The position numbers and the translations under genes were made by a program. Under the pieces are notes generated by a model. That model was not told the origin of the DNA and ran no database searches. It saw only the letters and a program-made list of their open reading frames with translations. Below are positions 40,128 to 51,890 of a stretch of DNA of 64,000 nucleotides, in pieces (within the stretch, counting starts at the first letter, position 1; every line of letters begins with the position of its first letter). Source of the DNA: Acidobacteriota bacterium (GTDB lineage: Bacteria; Acidobacteriota; G020349885); contig CP070701.1 of NCBI GenBank assembly GCA_020349885.1, forward strand, positions 793,631 through 857,630. Direction: 5' to 3'.

Positions 40128-41549
40128 ATGGCATCGGAAAAACCAACGTCTATCTCCATACGGCGGCTCGCCGTCTGTCTGGCCATTGGCGCGGCCGCAT
40201 GGGTCGTTCCCGCACCCGAAGGGTTAACGGCGGCGGGATGGCATGTGCTCGGGGTCTTTGCCGCCACGATTGCGAGCTTTGTCATACGGCCGCTGCCGAT
40301 GGGAGCGATGGTATTGCTCGGATTGATCGCACTCTCCGTAACAGGAACACTTCCCTACAAGAGCATGCTGGAGGCGTTCGGCAACATTACCGTCTGGCTG
40401 GTGGTTGCAGCGTTTCTTCTCGCCGGAGCGGTTGGCCGAACCGGCTTTGGCCGGAGGATCGCGCTCGGCTTCATGGCCTTTCTCGGGCGCTCGACGCTCG
40501 GGCTCGGCTACTCGGTCTGTGCCTCGGAGGTTGTCCTTGGGCCGATCGTTCCATCCAACACGGCCCGCGGTGGTGGAATCATAGCTCCCATCATAAGATC
40601 GCTGTGCGTAGAGCTCAACTCACATCCCTCCGAGCAACCGGAGCGGGCGGGTCGGTATCTGACCCTGGTGGGGGCGCATGCGAACCTCGTTACGGCCGCC
40701 ATGTTTTTGACCGGAATGGCGGCTAACCCGCTGTTGAAGGCGGCGGCTGAAGATGTCTTTCAGATAGATTTCGGTTTTTGCACCTGGGCGATCGGAGCGC
40801 TCGTTCCAGGACTTGTCTCGCTTGGTCTGCTCCCCCTGTTAATGTATAAGCTCTCCCCGCCGACGCTCAAGGATTCCCGAGCCGCTCAGGAAAAGGCGCG
40901 CTCCGACCTCAAGGCCATGGGCCGCTGGACGCGAGGCCAGATAGTCATGGCGGCGGTTTTCGTGCTACTGCTGGTGCTCTGGTCCACAAAGCCGATCCAC
41001 GGGATGGGGACCGGGCTGGTGGCCTGGCTCGGGGTTTGCATACTGCTCGTATCGGGCACCGAGGGCTGGCAGGACGTGACGGGAAACGCCAGAGCCTGGG
41101 ACACGTTGTTCTGGCTCGGCGGCCTGTTGGCCATGGCGGGCGCTCTCAAATCCGAGGGCGTGGTCGGCTGGTTCGCGCAGGCGATGCAAGACCAGGTGGC
41201 CGGACTTGGCAGCATCACGCTCGTGCTGATCCTCGCCCTCATTTATTTCTACTCCATGTACGGTTTCTCGATGCTGACGGCCCACATCTCGGCGCTTGCG
41301 ACCGCCTTTTTCGCAATCGCCGCGAGCGCCGGCGCCCCGCCCATGCTCACGATTGCGCTGCTGGCGTACTTCTCGAACCTGTGCGCTTGCACCACGAACT
41401 ACTCGACGGGGCCGGTGATCATCTACTTCGGCTTGGGCTACGTGCCGTCGCAGAGTTGGTTCAAGGTCGGCGCGCTCGTATCTCTTTTCCACCTGGCCGT
41501 ATGGCTTGGCGTGGGGATGGCTTGGTGGAAAATCCTCGGCTGGTGGTGA
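40128..41549 (+). CDS. DASS-family anion permease (CitT/SODiT1-like)
   Basis: A 473-residue membrane protein with about 12 helices of the divalent anion/sodium symporter (DASS, SLC13) family. The first substrate-site motif is Ser143-Asn144-Thr145 in VPSNTARGGG. The second half carries FSNLCACTTNYSTGP as in CitT/2-oxoglutarate-malate translocators. Likely substrates are di- or tricarboxylates or related anions; specificity is not readable. A very strong RBS (AAAGGAGG) precedes the ATG. DASS proteins share the IT-superfamily fold with TRAP DctM, which matters because the next gene encodes TRAP-type (TAXI) binding domains. Confidence 0.92.
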   Translation: MASEKPTSISIRRLAVCLAIGAAAWVVPAPEGLTAAGWHVLGVFAATIASFVIRPLPMGAMVLLGLIALSVTGTLPYKSMLEAFGNITVWLVVAAFLLAGAVGRTGFGRRIALGFMAFLGRSTLGLGYSVCASEVVLGPIVPSNTARGGGIIAPIIRSLCVELNSHPSEQPERAGRYLTLVGAHANLVTAAMFLTGMAANPLLKAAAEDVFQIDFGFCTWAIGALVPGLVSLGLLPLLMYKLSPPTLKDSRAAQEKARSDLKAMGRWTRGQIVMAAVFVLLLVLWSTKPIHGMGTGLVAWLGVCILLVSGTEGWQDVTGNARAWDTLFWLGGLLAMAGALKSEGVVGWFAQAMQDQVAGLGSITLVLILALIYFYSMYGFSMLTAHISALATAFFAIAASAGAPPMLTIALLAYFSNLCACTTNYSTGPVIIYFGLGYVPSQSWFKVGALVSLFHLAVWLGVGMAWWKILGWW

Positions 41550-41744: not shown

Positions 41745-41818
41745 GATAGTTCGCAAAAGAAAGGCTTTTCCATGAGCCAAAAAGAACGGTGTTTGTTGGT
41801 TATCATGGGGAGGATCGC

Positions 41819-44302
41819 ATGAGCCGCCGCACGCTCGCATGGCTCGTTGCCTTGAGTGCCATTCTGATCGTGCTGGTGGCGGTGGTTGTCCGGCTCAGGC
41901 CGAAGCCTTCACTGCAGCACCTGAAGATATCAACCGCAACCATAGGGGGCACTTACTACCCGCTAGGGGCTCAACTCGCCCGAATTCTCGAGCAACTTCC
42001 AGGCCGGCCCATCCAGCGCGCGGTGGCGGAACAGTCAAACGGTTCGGTCGAGAACATCCAGCGCCTGGTCAACGCACAGGCTGATGTTGCTTTTGTCATG
42101 GGGCCGGCACTTTTCAGGGCTATCCGCGAAAGTCCCGAAGCCGAGTCGACCATAAGCGTTCTCGCCCGTCTCTACAAGGATGACGTTCTCGTCGTGGTAC
42201 GCAAGGAGACGGGAATTAGGAACATAGCCGGCCTGAAGAATGCAAGACTCTTCATTGGTTCCCGGACCAGCGGAACACGGATGGCGGCGACGCATATCCT
42301 CGAAACCGTCGGCCTCTCCGAAAATGACTATACGGCCGACGACGCTGGAAGCTTCGCGGAGGCCGCGAACAGACTCATAGAAGGAGATATCGACGCGGCG
42401 TTCTTCATGGTGGGGATGCCGGCCGAAGCAGTGCAGAGAGTACTTGAATGGGGAGGGGCCGAACTGCTGAGCATGGCTGCCGAGACCCGACGACAACTGG
42501 CATCGGGCCCGGACAGCATCGGGCTGGCAGCGGACGAGTTGCCTGCGAATCTCTTTCCGAATCAACCCAAAAGCATCCACACCATGTCCGCGGACGTCTT
42601 TCTCGTCGCCCGGAACGACCTCCCGCGGGACATAGGTTTTATCATCGTCAAGGCGCTTTTCGACAATATCGCCGACTTGCTGCTTGCGCACCCCAAGGCC
42701 CAGGATGTCAAGTTGACGGAGGCCTTCGATGTGCCGGAAGGCCTCCCCTTTCACGCGGGCGCGGCGAAATTCCGGAAAACGGAGGAGGGCTCGCTGCTCA
42801 TAGCCACGGGAGCCATCGAGGGGAAAAACTACCGACTCGGCAAGATGATGCAGGCGCTGCTCGCCGAGCGCGGGATTCCCGCCCGGGTGACCCACAGCGA
42901 CGGATCTCTGGAAAACGCGATGCTGCTCAGCAAGCGCCCTTCGATAGCCATCATGCAATACGACGCCGCCCTGGCCTCGCGCTTCGGCAAGCCCCGATTC
43001 GTGTATAACCTCGATCTCGACGAGCTCAGCGTTCCCACCGTCAGCAACATACAGCGACTCGCCGTTCTGCACGACGCGAAAGTCCAAATGTTCATACGCA
43101 GAGAGAAGCTTGCACTACTGGAGGAAAGCCTCAACCAAGGCCTTCCGCCTTCGAAACGAACGGCGATCACGACGCTGGGTGAGGTAGCAACGGCTCTGGG
43201 GAAGCTGCCGCCGGGCGAGCCGAAGCTCCGGGTGTGCCTCGGCCCGGTGAACAGCGCCACGCAGATGGTCGCGCGAGTCGTCTTGAAGCACCATGGTGTT
43301 CACTCGGATTCAATCACGCCGTTGTTTCTGTCGGTTCCGAACATGGTGGCACGGCTCCACAGCGAAGAGATAGACGTGGGTTTCTTCGTCAGCTACGTGC
43401 CCTGCCTGGCGATAAGAACGATCCTCAACGACGACTCGATCAAGCTTCTGTCCATGGCGCCGAAAGAACAGGCTCTGATGTCGGGAACCGTTTTCACCAT
43501 GTCCACGATCGAGCCCGGCACGTACGCGTGTCAAAGGGAAGACGAGCCGGCGATTCAAACCCTTTCCATCCACGAGGTGCTGGCCACCACGGAAGACCTG
43601 CCGTTCGACGTCAAGGCCATCACGAGGGCGATCTTCGAAGGGGAAGCGTTTCTGAACATTGCTGGCGGGGCGGATGCGCTGGCGCTGGATCTCGCTTCGC
43701 TCCCGCTGCATCCCGATGCGAAGGAGTATTACCAGGAGGCCGGGCACCTTCCCGCCACCTTCGTGTGGCACCAGCCTTTCGAGTGGATCCATGCAACGTG
43801 GCGCCTCCTGGCGACTCTCGTGATTGTTGTCGCCGGCTGTGCGGGCGTCATCAAGCTGAAGCGTAACCGAACCGCCACCGAAATTGGAAGAAAAATTCTC
43901 GCTATCTCTCCTGGAGTGACCGAGTCGGACTCGGTGGAAAAGTTGCTGGTGATCCGCGATGAAATTCAAGAGCGAGTTCGCAGAAGATGGTGGCACTTGG
44001 GAGAGCTGGACAACTCTCACTGGCGCTACCTGCACGGTCTGATTGACGACAGGGTGAACGAAGCAAAGAAAATCCTGACGAGGGCGCTGGTCTCCGAGAT
44101 CCGACGCTACGGGAAGGACGGCGCCATGGATGGTGCGGTGCGGCAAGCGCGGCATGATTCCCTCATGCAACGCATCTGGGCTTTCTTCGAGTCGGGCGAA
44201 CTGGAGGCGGCACAGCACGATCTGCTCTTGAAAATGTTGCAAGACCACGCCCCGCAAGACTCCGTGGAACAGACGCCCCGCGATGAAAAAGATGAGTCCT
44301 AA
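41819..44302 (+). CDS. Membrane-tethered tandem TAXI solute-binding protein
   Basis: An 827-residue protein with an N-terminal membrane anchor (about 6-26). TAXI domain 1 covers about residues 33-325: STATIGGTYYPLGAQLARIL, SNGSVENI, FIGSRTSGTR, and a LPFHAGAAK end. TAXI-like domain 2 covers about 327-635: ATGAIEGKNYRLGKMMQALL, SDGSLENAMLL, and a LPLHPDAKEYYQEAG end. A second membrane segment (about 655-675) leads to a helical cytoplasmic tail of about 150 residues. TAXI domains are binding components of TRAP transporters, often for glutamate-like ligands. No TRAP DctM gene is present; a DASS permease precedes it. The ATG at 41819 has GGGGAGG upstream. Confidence 0.85.
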   Translation: MSRRTLAWLVALSAILIVLVAVVVRLRPKPSLQHLKISTATIGGTYYPLGAQLARILEQLPGRPIQRAVAEQSNGSVENIQRLVNAQADVAFVMGPALFRAIRESPEAESTISVLARLYKDDVLVVVRKETGIRNIAGLKNARLFIGSRTSGTRMAATHILETVGLSENDYTADDAGSFAEAANRLIEGDIDAAFFMVGMPAEAVQRVLEWGGAELLSMAAETRRQLASGPDSIGLAADELPANLFPNQPKSIHTMSADVFLVARNDLPRDIGFIIVKALFDNIADLLLAHPKAQDVKLTEAFDVPEGLPFHAGAAKFRKTEEGSLLIATGAIEGKNYRLGKMMQALLAERGIPARVTHSDGSLENAMLLSKRPSIAIMQYDAALASRFGKPRFVYNLDLDELSVPTVSNIQRLAVLHDAKVQMFIRREKLALLEESLNQGLPPSKRTAITTLGEVATALGKLPPGEPKLRVCLGPVNSATQMVARVVLKHHGVHSDSITPLFLSVPNMVARLHSEEIDVGFFVSYVPCLAIRTILNDDSIKLLSMAPKEQALMSGTVFTMSTIEPGTYACQREDEPAIQTLSIHEVLATTEDLPFDVKAITRAIFEGEAFLNIAGGADALALDLASLPLHPDAKEYYQEAGHLPATFVWHQPFEWIHATWRLLATLVIVVAGCAGVIKLKRNRTATEIGRKILAISPGVTESDSVEKLLVIRDEIQERVRRRWWHLGELDNSHWRYLHGLIDDRVNEAKKILTRALVSEIRRYGKDGAMDGAVRQARHDSLMQRIWAFFESGELEAAQHDLLLKMLQDHAPQDSVEQTPRDEKDES

Positions 44303-44468: not shown

Positions 44469-45518
44469 GTGAAAGTTTTGAAAATATATATCCATCTATT
44501 GCTCTTTGTCCTCTTTATAGCGAGTCCCCATGTTTCCTGGGCCGAGGAGGCCTTTTCCGCAGGCACGATTCTTCCCACCTCGCCCCAAGAGATAGAGCAA
44601 ACGCTTTCAGAAATGCACCAAAAATATATGGCCCTTAAGGACGGAGAGGTGTATATCTCCGGAACAGAACAGGTGAATCCCGACTGGTTTGGTATCGCCA
44701 TCGCGACGGTTGACGGCCGCGTCCACATGGTCGGGAATGCGGACACGCCCTTTCCGATTCAATCGATCGCCAAGCCTTTCGTCTATGGGCTGGCCTTGGA
44801 AGACCACGGCCGCGAGATTATGCTGAAGAAAGTAGGCGTGAATGCCACGGGCCTTCCCTACGACTCCATCATCGCTTCCACTGTTCGGGCGAAGCAATTG
44901 CAAAACCCCATGGTCAGCGCCGGAGCGATTGCCACGACAAGCCTCATCAAAGGCTCGACCGCGAAAAAGAAATGGGCCCGCGTGCGCCGCGTGTTCTCTC
45001 GCTATGCCGGCCACACACTGCCGTTGAACGAGCAGGTGTACCAAGCGGAAATGAAACAGAGTGCCATGAGCCGGGCGCTGGCGGAACTTTTAAGCGCCTA
45101 CCATCTTCTTTACGCCAAGGTGGACGACACCATCGCGCTGTACCTCAAGGGAACCTCCCAAAGCGTCACGGCAAAAGATTTGGCCATCATGGGAGCAACC
45201 CTAGCCAATTGGGGCGCCAATCCTCTCACGCAGGAACGGGCAATCAAAGAAAAGTATGTGCAGAACATCCTCTCCGCCATGGTAACGGCCGGCCTCTATG
45301 ATGACTCCGGGGAATGGCTGTTCAAGGTCGGCCTGCCCGGGAAAAGCGGCGTGGGAGGCGGCATTGTGGCGGTCGTTCCGGGAAGATTCGCCGTTGCCGT
45401 CTATTCTCCGCCTCTAGACTCGAGCGGCAACAGCGTCCGTGGTGTCCACGTCGTTCAAGACCTGTCGAATCGATGGGATTTGCACATGTTTTCTCCGCGC
45501 AGGGAAGAGTCACGCTGA
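44469..45518 (+). CDS. Secreted glutaminase
   Basis: A 349-residue member of the glutaminase (GlsA) family, serine-dependent beta-lactamase-like fold. It has the catalytic Ser99-Ile-Ala-Lys102 (SIAKPF), NPMVSAGAIA and GLPGKSGVGGGIVAV. It deamidates glutamine to glutamate. Unlike usual cytosolic GlsA it carries a strong signal peptide (residues 1-25, ending VSWAEEAF), so the reaction should occur in the periplasm or outside. The start is a GTG preceded by AGGAGG. Several long insert regions (RVFSRYAGHTL and others) differ from standard enzymes. AT-rich 5' end; lower GC than flanking genes. The channel gene follows after 55 bp. Confidence 0.9.
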   Translation: MKVLKIYIHLLLFVLFIASPHVSWAEEAFSAGTILPTSPQEIEQTLSEMHQKYMALKDGEVYISGTEQVNPDWFGIAIATVDGRVHMVGNADTPFPIQSIAKPFVYGLALEDHGREIMLKKVGVNATGLPYDSIIASTVRAKQLQNPMVSAGAIATTSLIKGSTAKKKWARVRRVFSRYAGHTLPLNEQVYQAEMKQSAMSRALAELLSAYHLLYAKVDDTIALYLKGTSQSVTAKDLAIMGATLANWGANPLTQERAIKEKYVQNILSAMVTAGLYDDSGEWLFKVGLPGKSGVGGGIVAVVPGRFAVAVYSPPLDSSGNSVRGVHVVQDLSNRWDLHMFSPRREESR

Positions 45519-45573: not shown

Positions 45574-48500
45574 ATGTCCAATAAAGGCTGGAAGCTTATC
45601 CTCGGCGCACTCGTCTTCAGCGTTGGCGTCGGGATCGTTATCACACACTTCCTGGGCAAAATCCGCCGGCCTGCCTCGTTCGAAGCGCTCCGCGCTGGTT
45701 TCATCGAGGAGTTCATCACCCGCAATGATGGATACCCCGGTCTCAGGGAGCACTACGGACTGAGGTTCCCCTCTGACCCGGAAGAGTTCGATCCCTACAT
45801 GATTTACCAGCAAGTAGCCGAACAGCGGGTCGATGTGATCAGCGGCCACTCTACCGCTGGGAGTATGCAAGGTTATGACTTAGCCATATTGGAAGACGAC
45901 AGGAATTTCTTTTTGCCCTACGAAGCGGCGCCGCTCGTTCGGCGGCAGACGCTTGATGAGCATCCCGAACTCAAGGACATCCTCGGGAAGCTCGCCGGGC
46001 AGATTTCGGAAGAGCAAATTCGTGAAATGAACTATCAAGTAGAGTACCGCGGCAAGGACGCCGCAGAGGTGGCCTGGGATTTTCTCGTTTCAAGAAAGCT
46101 CATTGATCCAGGCAATGAGCCGGGAGACGGATCGGCCGGCACCATCACAATTGGGGCCAAGTTTTTCGCCGAGCACGACATCCTCACAAGACTGATGGCC
46201 GTCCTAATCGAGCACCATTCCAACGTCAAAGTTTTGCGCAAGTTGAAGTTGATCGGGACGGCAACCTGTTTCGACGCGCTGCGGAGAGGCCAAATCGATC
46301 TCTACGTCGAATACACGGGGACAGGGCTGATTCTCTTGGAGCCGCTGCTGAGTCAGATCATCCAGGAGCCGGGCGAAGCGTTTGAAACGGTTCGGCACAA
46401 ATTCGCAGACGAGTATGACCTCGTATGGCTGGACCGCTTTGGTTTTAACAACACCTGGACGCTTGTTATGCGAAGCGAGCAAGCCCGACAACTCGGTATC
46501 AAGACCATCTCTGATCTGGCGAACGTTCTGAAGGAGCAATCCGAAACTCTGGCGCGACGCACGCACGGCGTCGGAATCTCTCCTCCGAGAACCGCTGCAC
46601 CGAGCCCACCAAGGGAGGCCCCCTTGACGGCTGCGGAACACCTTCGATCCTTGGAACGCAGGCAACAGCCTCCCACCGAGTTTGGCAGGCGAAGTGTGAC
46701 GCAGGAGGAGTACTTTCGGGCCAAGCATGATTTGGCCGATTCTGAAATGGAGCTGGATTCTGTGCGCGAACGCCTCCGTGCCGAACTGCCCAAGGCCCTG
46801 AAGGCTGCTCAAGAATCAAAAGAAAAAGCCCTCACGGCCCGTGTCGAGGCCGAAAAGCACCGGGTGAGTGTTTTCGAACAAGAGCGGAAGCTCAAGGAGC
46901 ACCGGCTGTCCATGGCCGAAACCGCAGCAACGACGACGTCGATCAAGGAAGTCTACGCCGCGTACCGGCGGGTGGCCATGACCGAAGACCTCTATCGCTA
47001 TGTTCAGGCGCTGGTGGACTCGTTGGAGGATGCGCGCCATGAATACGTCAGACATCAGGAGTTATTGAAAGAGCTGATGGCAGAACCCGGGAAGACGGAA
47101 GTGGCTGCCGAAGACCTAAAAACCCTTCGTGACGAGCTGGAGCAGGCGCCCAGGGAAATCACCATCCTCGCGCAACATGCCGACACGGCCGCTCGGCGAC
47201 TGGAGCAAGTGAAGAATCAGGTCTCCTTGGCACGAGAGCGACTGGAGATCTCAAAGGAGCATCTGAAATTGGAGCCTAAACCGGATGTGTCTGCGAGGCC
47301 CGATTCCACGAGAAGCCTTCCTGCCGGCGCCACCCTGGACGAACTCAAGCGGGAGACGGAGCGTAGGAAAGCTGAAGCCCAAAGCGCCGAGAACAAAGCC
47401 GACCTTGCTGAGGAGGAGGCCGATCAAGCCAGGGAGCTTACCGTCACAGAGTTGAAGGAAATGACAGACTTCGAGTGGGAACTGAGATATGCGCGGGATG
47501 TGCTGAAGAGGCTCCAGAGGGAGGGGGTTTCTCCGGATACGACCGCGGCCGCCCAGGAAAGGATTGATTTTCTAGAAGGCACGCTGGCCCGCATCCAGAC
47601 AACTCTGTCCCAGCTCGAACAGTCGATGAAGGAAAACAGGCAGCGAGCGCGAGAAAAACGCCTCCACGCCGAGTCGATGCACCGGGCCGCCGAGGATGCC
47701 GCGGCACGGCTGCGCGAAGAAGAGACAGAGCTCTTCAACGAAAAGATTCGAAAGCGGGGGCTGGCTGGCTTTTTTGCCGCGCTTACGATTGGGCTGGCCG
47801 TGTGGGTCCATCGCCTGGTTCGAGATAAGGAACGCCTGAGCCTGCGGGGCGTGACGGACCCCGAGAAGACGAAACGGATCCACACTCCCTACGTGCTGAT
47901 CCGCCGGATTGCCGTTCCACTCATTGGCATTGTGGGAACCCTCCTTGTCCTGCTGCAATTCGAGACGTTCCAGCGCATCAGCCTATCGATTCTCGCCTCG
48001 GCGGGAATCGCGGGCGTCGTCGTTGGGCTCGCCGCCCGGAGCCTGCTTGCCAACGCGGTGGCGGGGGTGACGCTCGCCTTCTCCCAGCCGATCCGGATCG
48101 GCGACACGGTCAAGATGGGTGACGAATGGGGTACGATTGAGGACATCGGCCTATTCCATACGATCTTCCTCGTGTGGGACCACCGGCGTATGGTCATTCC
48201 CAACGAAGTCCTGGCGGGGCGGGAGATCGTCAACTACTCCCTACGCGACCAGAAAATTTGGACCAAAGTGCCGATCTACCTCGACTACGACGCCGATGTG
48301 AAGAAAGCCCGTGAGATCCTGATTGAGGTAGCCAAGGAAAGCAAGAACTGGAATGGAAAGGATGAGCCGGAGGTGTGGTTCATGGAACTGGGCGAGCAGA
48401 CCATCTGCCTGTGGATTGCGGCATGGGCGGATGATCCTGATAAAGCATGGAGGCTTGGCTGCGATATTTTGGACAATGCCCTTCGAAGATTTCAGGAGGA

Positions 48501-48591
48501 AGGGATTCCACTGCCGCGCAGGCGCTTTCAGCTCGATGGCCCGCAGATCGCATTCGAACCGGAAAAAGGCCCGCGAGCCAAAGAAGAGTGA
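45574..48591 (+). CDS. OpuAC (permuted) - coiled coil - MscS channel fusion
   Basis: A 1005-residue fusion. Residues 7-27 form a membrane anchor. Residues about 34-177 match the second half of an OpuAC betaine/choline-type binding domain (EEFITRNDGYPGLREHYGL, then GHSTAGSM and LEDDRNFFLPYEAAPLVR). Residues about 190-320 match the first half (GTITIGAKFFAEHDILT, DLYVEYTGTG, GFNNTWTLVMR, TISDLANVL). The halves are thus in swapped order. A long coiled coil follows (about 370-725), then helices near 729-750 and 775-800, and an MscS pore and beta domain (IAGVVVGLAARSLLANAVAG, then QPIRIGD and VIPNEVL) to the end. A ligand-influenced mechanosensitive-type channel is inferred. The ATG at 45574 sets the anchor. 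Confidence 0.85.
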   Translation: MSNKGWKLILGALVFSVGVGIVITHFLGKIRRPASFEALRAGFIEEFITRNDGYPGLREHYGLRFPSDPEEFDPYMIYQQVAEQRVDVISGHSTAGSMQGYDLAILEDDRNFFLPYEAAPLVRRQTLDEHPELKDILGKLAGQISEEQIREMNYQVEYRGKDAAEVAWDFLVSRKLIDPGNEPGDGSAGTITIGAKFFAEHDILTRLMAVLIEHHSNVKVLRKLKLIGTATCFDALRRGQIDLYVEYTGTGLILLEPLLSQIIQEPGEAFETVRHKFADEYDLVWLDRFGFNNTWTLVMRSEQARQLGIKTISDLANVLKEQSETLARRTHGVGISPPRTAAPSPPREAPLTAAEHLRSLERRQQPPTEFGRRSVTQEEYFRAKHDLADSEMELDSVRERLRAELPKALKAAQESKEKALTARVEAEKHRVSVFEQERKLKEHRLSMAETAATTTSIKEVYAAYRRVAMTEDLYRYVQALVDSLEDARHEYVRHQELLKELMAEPGKTEVAAEDLKTLRDELEQAPREITILAQHADTAARRLEQVKNQVSLARERLEISKEHLKLEPKPDVSARPDSTRSLPAGATLDELKRETERRKAEAQSAENKADLAEEEADQARELTVTELKEMTDFEWELRYARDVLKRLQREGVSPDTTAAAQERIDFLEGTLARIQTTLSQLEQSMKENRQRAREKRLHAESMHRAAEDAAARLREEETELFNEKIRKRGLAGFFAALTIGLAVWVHRLVRDKERLSLRGVTDPEKTKRIHTPYVLIRRIAVPLIGIVGTLLVLLQFETFQRISLSILASAGIAGVVVGLAARSLLANAVAGVTLAFSQPIRIGDTVKMGDEWGTIEDIGLFHTIFLVWDHRRMVIPNEVLAGREIVNYSLRDQKIWTKVPIYLDYDADVKKAREILIEVAKESKNWNGKDEPEVWFMELGEQTICLWIAAWADDPDKAWRLGCDILDNALRRFQEEGIPLPRRRFQLDGPQIAFEPEKGPRAKEE

Positions 48592-50387: not shown

Positions 50388-51890
50388 ATGCAAGAACTTT
50401 TCGCCATTGCCGAGGAAACGGGAATCTTAAACGCCTTCAAGGCCGTGGGCATTCTGGTCTTTGGAGTGCTCTTTGCCCTGGCCTTATTCATCATCGTGCG
50501 GGCGGCGCTCCGCCGCACGGAGATCGACAACCGGCTGGCGCGGTGGTTCCTCGGCGACGTGAGGGCAAGATCGATGGAAGTGGAGCAGGCGATCGCAAAG
50601 GTGATTTTCTACCTCATCCTTGTCGTTTTCCTGGGCTTGTCTTTCCAGGTGCTGGGGTTCACGCTCATCACCGAGCCGCTCATCCGGTTTTTGACCAAGC
50701 TCTCCGAGGTGGCCCCGCAGCTGATCGGCGCGGGAGCCTTGCTGCTCTTCGCCTGGGTCGTGGCCACGGTGCTGAGGCTCACCCTCATGCGGGTGTTGAG
50801 CGCCGCGAGACTTGACAAGCACCTCGCAACCTCCGCGGGCTTCGAAGAGGAGGGACAGGCCGCGGTGAGTCAGACGCTCAGCAACGCGGCGTACTGGCTG
50901 GTTTTCCTGCTCTTTCTGCCCGGGGTGCTGAGTGTGCTGAGCGGGCTGGGGCTGCAGGGGCTGCTGGAGCCGGTGCAGGGGATGATGAACAAAGTCTTCA
51001 GCTTTCTGCCGAACATTCTTTACGCCGGCGTGATCCTGGTGGGCGGCTGGCTCATCGCGCGCATTCTGCAGCGGATTGTGGCCAACCTTACGGCCGCCGC
51101 CGGCGCGGACCGGCTGAGCGAACAGGCGGGGCTGACCGCGGTGCTCGGAAAACACCGGCTCTCCGACCTGCTCGGGCTCATCCTCTACGTGCTGGTCCTC
51201 ATCCCCGTGCTCATCGCCGCCCTCGACAAGCTGAAACTGGCGGCCATCACGCAGCCCGCAACCAACATGCTGAACAGGATCTGGGTGGCCCTTCCCAACA
51301 TCTTCGCCGCCGTTCTGCTGCTCCTGGTTTCCTACTGGATCGGGCGCGTGGTCGCCGGGTGGATCACCAACCTGCTGGAGGGCCTGGGCTTCAACGCCAT
51401 CCTGCGCCAGCTCGGCCTCGGCAAGGAGCCCGCCGAGGGCGAGAGGACGCCTTCCGAGATTGCGGGGGGTCTGGTTCTCGTGGCGGTCGTGCTCTTTGCG
51501 AGCGTGGAGGCGTTCCAGCTTCTCGGCTTCTCCCTCGTGGCCGACCTGGTCTACCAGTTCCTCGTCGCGGCCGGCCAGGTTCTCGTGGGGCTGCTTGTCT
51601 TCGCCATCGGCCTCTACCTGGCCAGCGTGGCGGCGCAGGCCGTGCTCGCGAGCGGGACGACGCAGGCCAGCCTGCTCGCCCTCGCGACGCGGGTTTCCAT
51701 CATCGCGCTCGGGGGCGCCATGGCCCTGCGGCAGATGGACCTTGCGAACGAGATCATCAATCTCGCCTTCGGCCTGCTGCTCGGGGCCGTGGCCGTGGCC
51801 GTGGCCCTGGCCTTCGGCCTCGGGGGCCGGGACATCGCGGCGCGCGAGCTTGAGGCCTGGCTCAAGTCCCTCAAAAGCAAGAAGTCCTGA
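50388..51890 (+). CDS. Multi-helix mechanosensitive-channel-like membrane protein (conserved TM helix repeats)
   Basis: A 500-residue integral membrane protein with about ten or more helices. It has repeated 'conserved TM helix' (PF05552-like) units such as LPNILYAGVILVGGWLIARI and LPNIFAAVLLLLVSYWIGRV followed by amphipathic segments. This is the CmpX-like arrangement related to MscS-type channels. The canonical MscS pore and beta domain is not obvious, so gating is unproven. RBS AGAGGAGG precedes the ATG. A TTGCTA/TATACT pair (50252-50281) may be its promoter. The gene is divergent from leuA. It is the second channel-like gene within 6 kb. Confidence 0.85.
   Translation: MQELFAIAEETGILNAFKAVGILVFGVLFALALFIIVRAALRRTEIDNRLARWFLGDVRARSMEVEQAIAKVIFYLILVVFLGLSFQVLGFTLITEPLIRFLTKLSEVAPQLIGAGALLLFAWVVATVLRLTLMRVLSAARLDKHLATSAGFEEEGQAAVSQTLSNAAYWLVFLLFLPGVLSVLSGLGLQGLLEPVQGMMNKVFSFLPNILYAGVILVGGWLIARILQRIVANLTAAAGADRLSEQAGLTAVLGKHRLSDLLGLILYVLVLIPVLIAALDKLKLAAITQPATNMLNRIWVALPNIFAAVLLLLVSYWIGRVVAGWITNLLEGLGFNAILRQLGLGKEPAEGERTPSEIAGGLVLVAVVLFASVEAFQLLGFSLVADLVYQFLVAAGQVLVGLLVFAIGLYLASVAAQAVLASGTTQASLLALATRVSIIALGGAMALRQMDLANEIINLAFGLLLGAVAVAVALAFGLGGRDIAARELEAWLKSLKSKKS

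Follow-up and report, generated by a model that had tools for sequence, protein, structure and literature searches.

A circularly permuted OpuBC-type binding domain fused to a helical rod and an MscS channel in an Acidobacteriota genome

The window, by which we mean the whole 64,000-nt stretch of DNA that was analyzed, carries on its forward strand a gene (45574..48591) that runs as a single unbroken frame of 1005 codons from an ATG at 45574 to a stop at 48591. Its 1005-aa product consists of a transmembrane anchor, a permuted OpuBC-type solute-binding domain (SBD), a helical rod and an MscS channel, and the period-3 GC signal (GC by codon position) was in keeping with coding sequence across all of these parts. 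A longer ORF starting at a GTG at 45439 was set aside as unneeded; it runs into the glutaminase gene. All features of the channel gene lie on the forward strand, beginning with the N-terminal anchor (45595..45651; aa 8–26, hydropathy 2.27). The second half of an OpuAC domain is placed first (45676..46086; aa 35–171, profile positions 113–255, with R50, H92 and Y116), followed by a linker between the old C- and N-termini (46087..46134; aa 172–187) and by the first half, placed second (46135..46539; aa ~188–322, profile positions 2–113, with K196, Y247, T250, N293 and W295). A proline-rich and probably flexible linker (46564..46701; aa 331–376, pLDDT mostly <70) leads into a charged helical rod (46702..47757; aa 377–728, with predicted helices at 377–503, 509–565, 588–650 and 654–728). 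The channel membrane helices come next (47764..48084; about aa 730–757, 763–793 and 797–837, the last being the MscS pore helix), and the MscS beta domain (aa 824–889, PF00924) and C-terminal domain (aa 898–979, PF21082) occupy 48043..48510. Besides the anchor, the hydropathy profile showed a helix at 731–749 and two more ahead of the beta domain.

Upstream of the channel gene, on the same strand, lie genes for a glutaminase A with an N-terminal hydrophobic signal (44469..45518, 55 bp from the channel gene), a TAXI-type solute-binding membrane protein of 837 aa (41789..44302, with a 166-bp gap to the glutaminase gene) and a DASS-type sodium:sulfate/dicarboxylate symporter (40128-41549); these are not betaine genes. 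The TAXI protein has a signal anchor, a late transmembrane helix and a cytosolic tail of ~145 residues, and looks like a membrane-tethered receptor. Beyond leuA, a second, different mechanosensitive-channel-like protein is encoded (50388-51890; NF033912, MS_channel_1st_1 repeats). A separate importer locus in the same genome (L241) encodes an ATPase and a canonical-order solute-binding protein (SBP).

The sequence-only reading had described the binding domain as a true circular permutation of the ordinary OpuAC/OsmF order, with the two blocks swapped and the cut falling between the DLA and EFxxRxDG motifs, and our analysis bore this out with respect to OsmF/OpuBC proteins. In the Pfam and whole-genome scan, OpuAC (PF04069) matched two stretches of the ORF in swapped order (183.2 bits against a cut-off of 21.2, E = 9e-54), while residues 188–322 matched positions 2–135 of the NCBIfam OsmF profile. 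The two halves of the domain are ~43–50% and 34–47% identical to those of ordinary OpuBC/OsmF proteins, and 43% and 45% identical to those of a canonical paralogue from the same genome (L001). A phmmer search returned 27 solved relatives, each aligned in two to three separate stretches, the top ones being proteins of the OpuBC type or sensors derived from such proteins; B. subtilis OpuAC was absent from the matches with E up to 1. The closest solved sequences are type II SBPs of subcluster F-III (EgtU, OpuBC, OsmF and A. fulgidus ProX), which share the pocket positions of the window domain but have the canonical half-order and no attached channel. Since the order of its halves is reversed, we regard the window domain as a permuted relative of this subcluster and not as a canonical member.

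Given an alignment of 63 permuted domains, translated unchanged from their loci, AlphaFold2 folded residues 30–329 into one compact Venus-flytrap (pLDDT 94.7, pTM 0.91) rather than into two half-domains unable to pack against each other. Compared with the PDB, this model was matched over its full length by B. subtilis OpuAC (2b4m: Z 20.3, rmsd 3.5, 247 residues), with OpuAC structures scoring Z 19–20 and the next rows Z ~10. OpuBC-type sensors and EgtU, which are nearest in sequence, aligned with the model over one half only (~residues 8–152; for 7s7y, a half-length match with Z 9.6, rmsd 1.9 and 42% identity), and Foldseek against the PDB gave the same picture. A full-length match to OpuAC together with half matches to OpuBC and EgtU is the pattern expected of a domain circularly permuted with respect to the OpuBC type. 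With both halves complete, their order swapped, the old ends joined and the predicted fold compact, the domain as modelled is a circular permutant. B. subtilis OpuAC (2B4L, 2B4M, 3CHG) has the same half-order but is only ~15% identical to the window domain, and the OpuAC proteins of L. lactis and B. subtilis bind their ligand in a Trp prism pocket (PMC2861598). Because the window sequence falls on the OpuBC/OsmF side, the order that it shares with B. subtilis OpuAC need not be inherited.

The permutation, which had been taken as peculiar to this channel, is not: B. subtilis OpuAC and at least 120 further DNA stretches, found across genomes of ~85,000 species, have the same half-order. Circular permutation among glycine-betaine-binding proteins was published in 2008, with B. 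subtilis OpuAC as one entry (PMC2395249), and TpMglB-2 is a natural permutation in another SBP type (PMC4990184). The further stretches were found with a permutation-specific DNA pattern built on the swapped order alone (PYxAAP, EYTGT and W, one after the other); on known loci it matched the window and another genome of the same phylum (G092), none of 46 other loci and no canonical locus. Among the matches listed, most came from Bacteroidota with the architecture permease-S2-S1 (110 ORFs), and the others from Planctomycetota, Hydrogenedentota, Armatimonadota, Cyanobacteria, Aminicenantes and Elusimicrobia. Judged by their sequences, permuted OpuBC-type domains are common and reside mostly in ABC importers. 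Our literature search found no report on this swapped-half OpuBC-type group (loci L053-L172). In the window's own phylum, one other genome among 396 sampled, G092, gave a single match spanning the junction, and the class of G092 gave two further junction-spanning matches. One pattern-matched ORF from Anaerolineae (L166:6853-7704) seemingly holds two canonical OpuBC-type domains in tandem and was for this reason rejected as a permutant; trimming a tandem of this kind at both ends is one way in which a permutation could come about.

A tree was built from 78 domains, all rearranged to one order, and in it the window domain fell on a long branch among planctomycete permuted SBPs (support 82), nearest to L111 and to L067, with which it shares 54% identity. 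Compared with a set of four planctomycete and Hydrogenedentota SBPs (L067, L111, L053 and L089), it is 45–52% identical. These proteins have its half-order and a similar linker joining the old ends, which reads LIDPGNEPGDGSAGTITIG in the window protein, LLSVDASPGDGSAGEVTIG (PGDGSAG) in L111 and LIDADQEPGSGSAGTITVG in L195 and has similar counterparts in other permuted SBPs of the two phyla, including L067 and L053; most also have a similar short N-terminal membrane anchor (the planctomycete L089, L111 and L067). They differ in being separate genes of ABC importer operons, two of which include an MscS gene, in ending just past the domain without rod or channel, and in having Y or F at the position of H92 and D at that of A95. 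As the swapped order is widespread in importers, the permutation most likely predates the joining of the domain to the channel, and the tree placement, the shared linker and the shared anchor make it most likely that the channel gene took over a permuted, anchored SBP. The AU test rejected a single clade of all permuted rows (p 0.0005), chiefly on account of the Elusimicrobia row L077, whose removal raises p to 0.07; on the tree model employed, the permutation would thus have arisen more than once, a conclusion that hangs mainly on L077. Two domains of canonical order, L206 (G657) and L203 (G536), adjoin permuted domains in the tree, and their position suggests that the order may have reverted or changed repeatedly.

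The sequence-only reading had also placed the permuted domain on a helical coil of ~350 residues and a complete MscS pore. This too was confirmed: both MscS domains scored above cut-off (PF00924, 53.4 bits; PF21082, 40.4 bits), and the best solved relatives of the channel part are MscS channels (7dlu, E 3.5e-24). By homology of its pore helix and its upper vestibule (the beta domain), the protein belongs to the MscS superfamily. The rod sequence gave only a weak Pfam coil match. Modelled together with the channel and apart from the SBD, the rod formed four long helices with moderate pLDDT within the helices and a pTM of 0.30, and its last helix (654–728) met the first channel helix (730–757) with a one-residue break, at modest confidence. 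Pfam gave no match to the MscS_porin domain in the window ORF up to E = 1, the NCBIfam MscK and MscM models matched the pore end only, far below cut-off, and neither Pfam nor NCBIfam gave a match to a cyclic-nucleotide-binding domain in this ORF.

MscK and MscM have large periplasmic parts. The E. coli-type channels MscS, MscK and MscM have the pore helix, beta domain and C-terminal domain in common with the window protein, but none is known to have a solute-binding domain. Channels of the bCNG type bind cyclic nucleotides through a cytosolic domain; what they share with the window protein is the principle of adding a ligand-binding domain to an MscS pore. Such additions do occur in the MscS superfamily, bCNG being a case (PMC4560390). 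No second SBD-rod-MscS ORF appeared among the matches listed from ~1,100 distinct genomes (from the window's phylum, Planctomycetota, Hydrogenedentota and Armatimonadota, plus single genomes) searched with the whole protein or the domain, and a whole-protein peptide-pattern scan of genome contigs found no relative, so that the full architecture was seen in one genome; a weak second case may have escaped the largest of these searches. Our literature search, limited to open-licence papers, found no report of an OpuAC-MscS fusion. What is new here is the fusion of a permuted SBD to a rod and an MscS channel; the permutation itself was already known.

Separate MscS genes do, however, occur in importer operons. 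In a Sedimentisphaerales locus (L089:972-4496), genes for an ATPase, a permease, an MscS protein and a permuted SBP overlap or abut one another; the MscS gene overlaps the SBP gene, and its product, which shares 32% identity with the window channel (E 4e-47), is one of the rows closest to that channel in the MscS tree. At L111:46-3829 the genes run ATPase, permease, permuted SBP, MscS, and at L213:336-3286 they run permease, canonical-order SBP, MscS. MscS genes were thus present at 3 of ~12 planctomycete or Hydrogenedentota loci with stand-alone SBPs, all three planctomycete; given a handful of MscS genes per genome, we estimate that chance would produce such an adjacency at ~1/100 of loci or fewer. 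A gene for an MttB-family methyltransferase lies upstream in one permuted-SBP operon (L224:9020-10537) and another beside a permuted importer (L239:281-1762), which fits quaternary amines being the ligands of permuted SBPs and suggests their catabolism. By eye, proteins at L234 and L236 resemble the L224 methyltransferase, and at L234 a gene for a MarC membrane protein lies between permease and SBP (L234:6252-6884).

In EgtU, the betaine pocket is formed by Y341, Y419, Y443, F293 and N339, and the carboxylate is held by K242, T296 and R379 (PMC9732360). Mapped by alignment onto EgtU alone, the first five correspond to W295, H92, Y116, Y247 and N293 of the window protein and the carboxylate triad to K196, T250 and R50, so that three of the four cage aromatics and the N339 equivalent are kept, with H92 at the Y419 position. 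H92 is unique among the 63 permuted domains (40 Y, 16 F and 6 S in the other 62), and D95, invariant in those 62 relatives, is an alanine here; with these two changes, affinity or ligand may differ. The pocket resembles that of a betaine binder with one altered wall.

We give about an even chance to the reading that the protein is an MscS-type channel whose opening a betaine-like solute outside the cell would tune. That the channel carries a periplasmic ligand sensor of its own, as the sequence-only reading had suggested, is the best hypothesis, with both binding and gating putative, and it is strengthened by the MscS genes found inside betaine-importer operons. The protein would form a homo-oligomeric inner-membrane channel, by homology a heptamer. 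The topology of MscS is known from E. coli, and taken with the hydropathy profile it would place the N-terminus inside, the SBD and rod in the periplasm and the three channel helices after them. The lobe limits of EgtU map to ~37–105 plus 295–322 for D2 and to ~118–176 plus 186–285 for D1 (PMC9732360); both chain ends then lie on D2, from which we infer that D2 is tethered to anchor and rod while D1 is the free lobe. An arrangement in which anchor and rod attach to different lobes was dropped for the same reason. The cleft would hold a betaine-like zwitterion between the aromatic cage and K196, T250 and R50, and this binding would close D1 on D2; the lobe mapping, and a last rod helix that is nearly continuous with the first channel helix, suggest that this closure could be relayed along the rod into that channel helix and so change how much tension is needed to open the pore. 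The effect of ligand may be either opening or closing.

The likely use of such a sensor would be to tune osmolyte retention or leak to external supply, a built-in "pump and leak" balance. In Corynebacterium, the betaine level reflects BetP import against MscCG leak ("pump and leak"), a physiology that a channel with a built-in betaine sensor would fit, and a Dickeya MscK-like protein is mentioned as a putative glycine-betaine sensor (PMC7174268). The intact pore and cytosolic domains, the confidently predicted flytrap, its full-length match to ligand-bound OpuAC and the conserved pocket all speak for the sensor reading. On the other side, the proline-rich linker (331–376) could disconnect the SBD from the rod, the coupling geometry comes from a rod model with a pTM of 0.30, H92 and A95 depart from the relatives, and the adjacent glutaminase, TAXI and DASS-type genes have no betaine role.

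A stronger form of the same idea, possible but doubtful in our view, is a true ligand-gated channel in which extracellular osmolyte alone would open or lock the MscS pore, again with D2 and not D1 tethered. Such a channel would be a counterpart in principle, though of separate origin, to ionotropic glutamate receptors including GluR0. In those receptors an extracellular type II SBP fold is likewise coupled to a pore, and the GluR0 core aligns with the window domain model at Z 10, but the pore is unrelated and the linkage different; the likeness is one of working, and we claim no membership.

The departures at H92 and A95 from positions nearly fixed in 62 relatives, the long branch of the window row (0.91 changes per column) and the flexible linker ahead of the rod could instead mean that the SBD no longer binds or signals and has become a structural cap or docking module on the periplasmic rod of an ordinary tension-gated channel, perhaps one anchored to the cell wall or to a partner. 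We consider this unlikely, because the rest of the pocket has stayed intact through long divergence, which is hard to explain without binding, and because the confidence of the predicted fold is very high. It is less likely again that the SBD serves transport, catching osmolyte at the channel mouth or handing it to an importer so that leak and re-uptake are coupled: SBPs of this type are the receptors of ABC importers, and L241 would supply a separate importer, but no permease or ATPase gene adjoins the window gene, D95, fixed in permuted importer SBPs, has been lost, and delivery needs no covalent tether to the pore. Still less probable, we think, is that the SBD responds to some other ligand, for instance glutamine or glutamate, and forms a local circuit with the upstream glutaminase and TAXI-type receptor genes; their common strand, short gaps and secretion-type signal on the glutaminase, along with the altered cage residue H92, are compatible with such a circuit, whereas quaternary-amine binders have the same kinds of residues in the rest of the cage and around the carboxylate. 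Finally, the fusion was seen in one genome and the pair occurs elsewhere as separate genes, but an assembly or frame artefact of an SBP-MscS gene pair like those of the planctomycete neighbours is very improbable given the open 1005-codon frame on a single 2.4-Mb contig, the coding signal in each part and the long unique rod between the domains, which is absent from either separate gene.

The sensor reading remains the one that we prefer, and MscS genes recur in the betaine-importer operons of Planctomycetota. If the SBD does gate the pore, the protein would be a channel of the mechanosensitive type with a direct readout of external osmolyte, uniting import sensing and leak in one protein, and the fusion lends itself to testing how a type II binding domain can act on a pore of unrelated origin.
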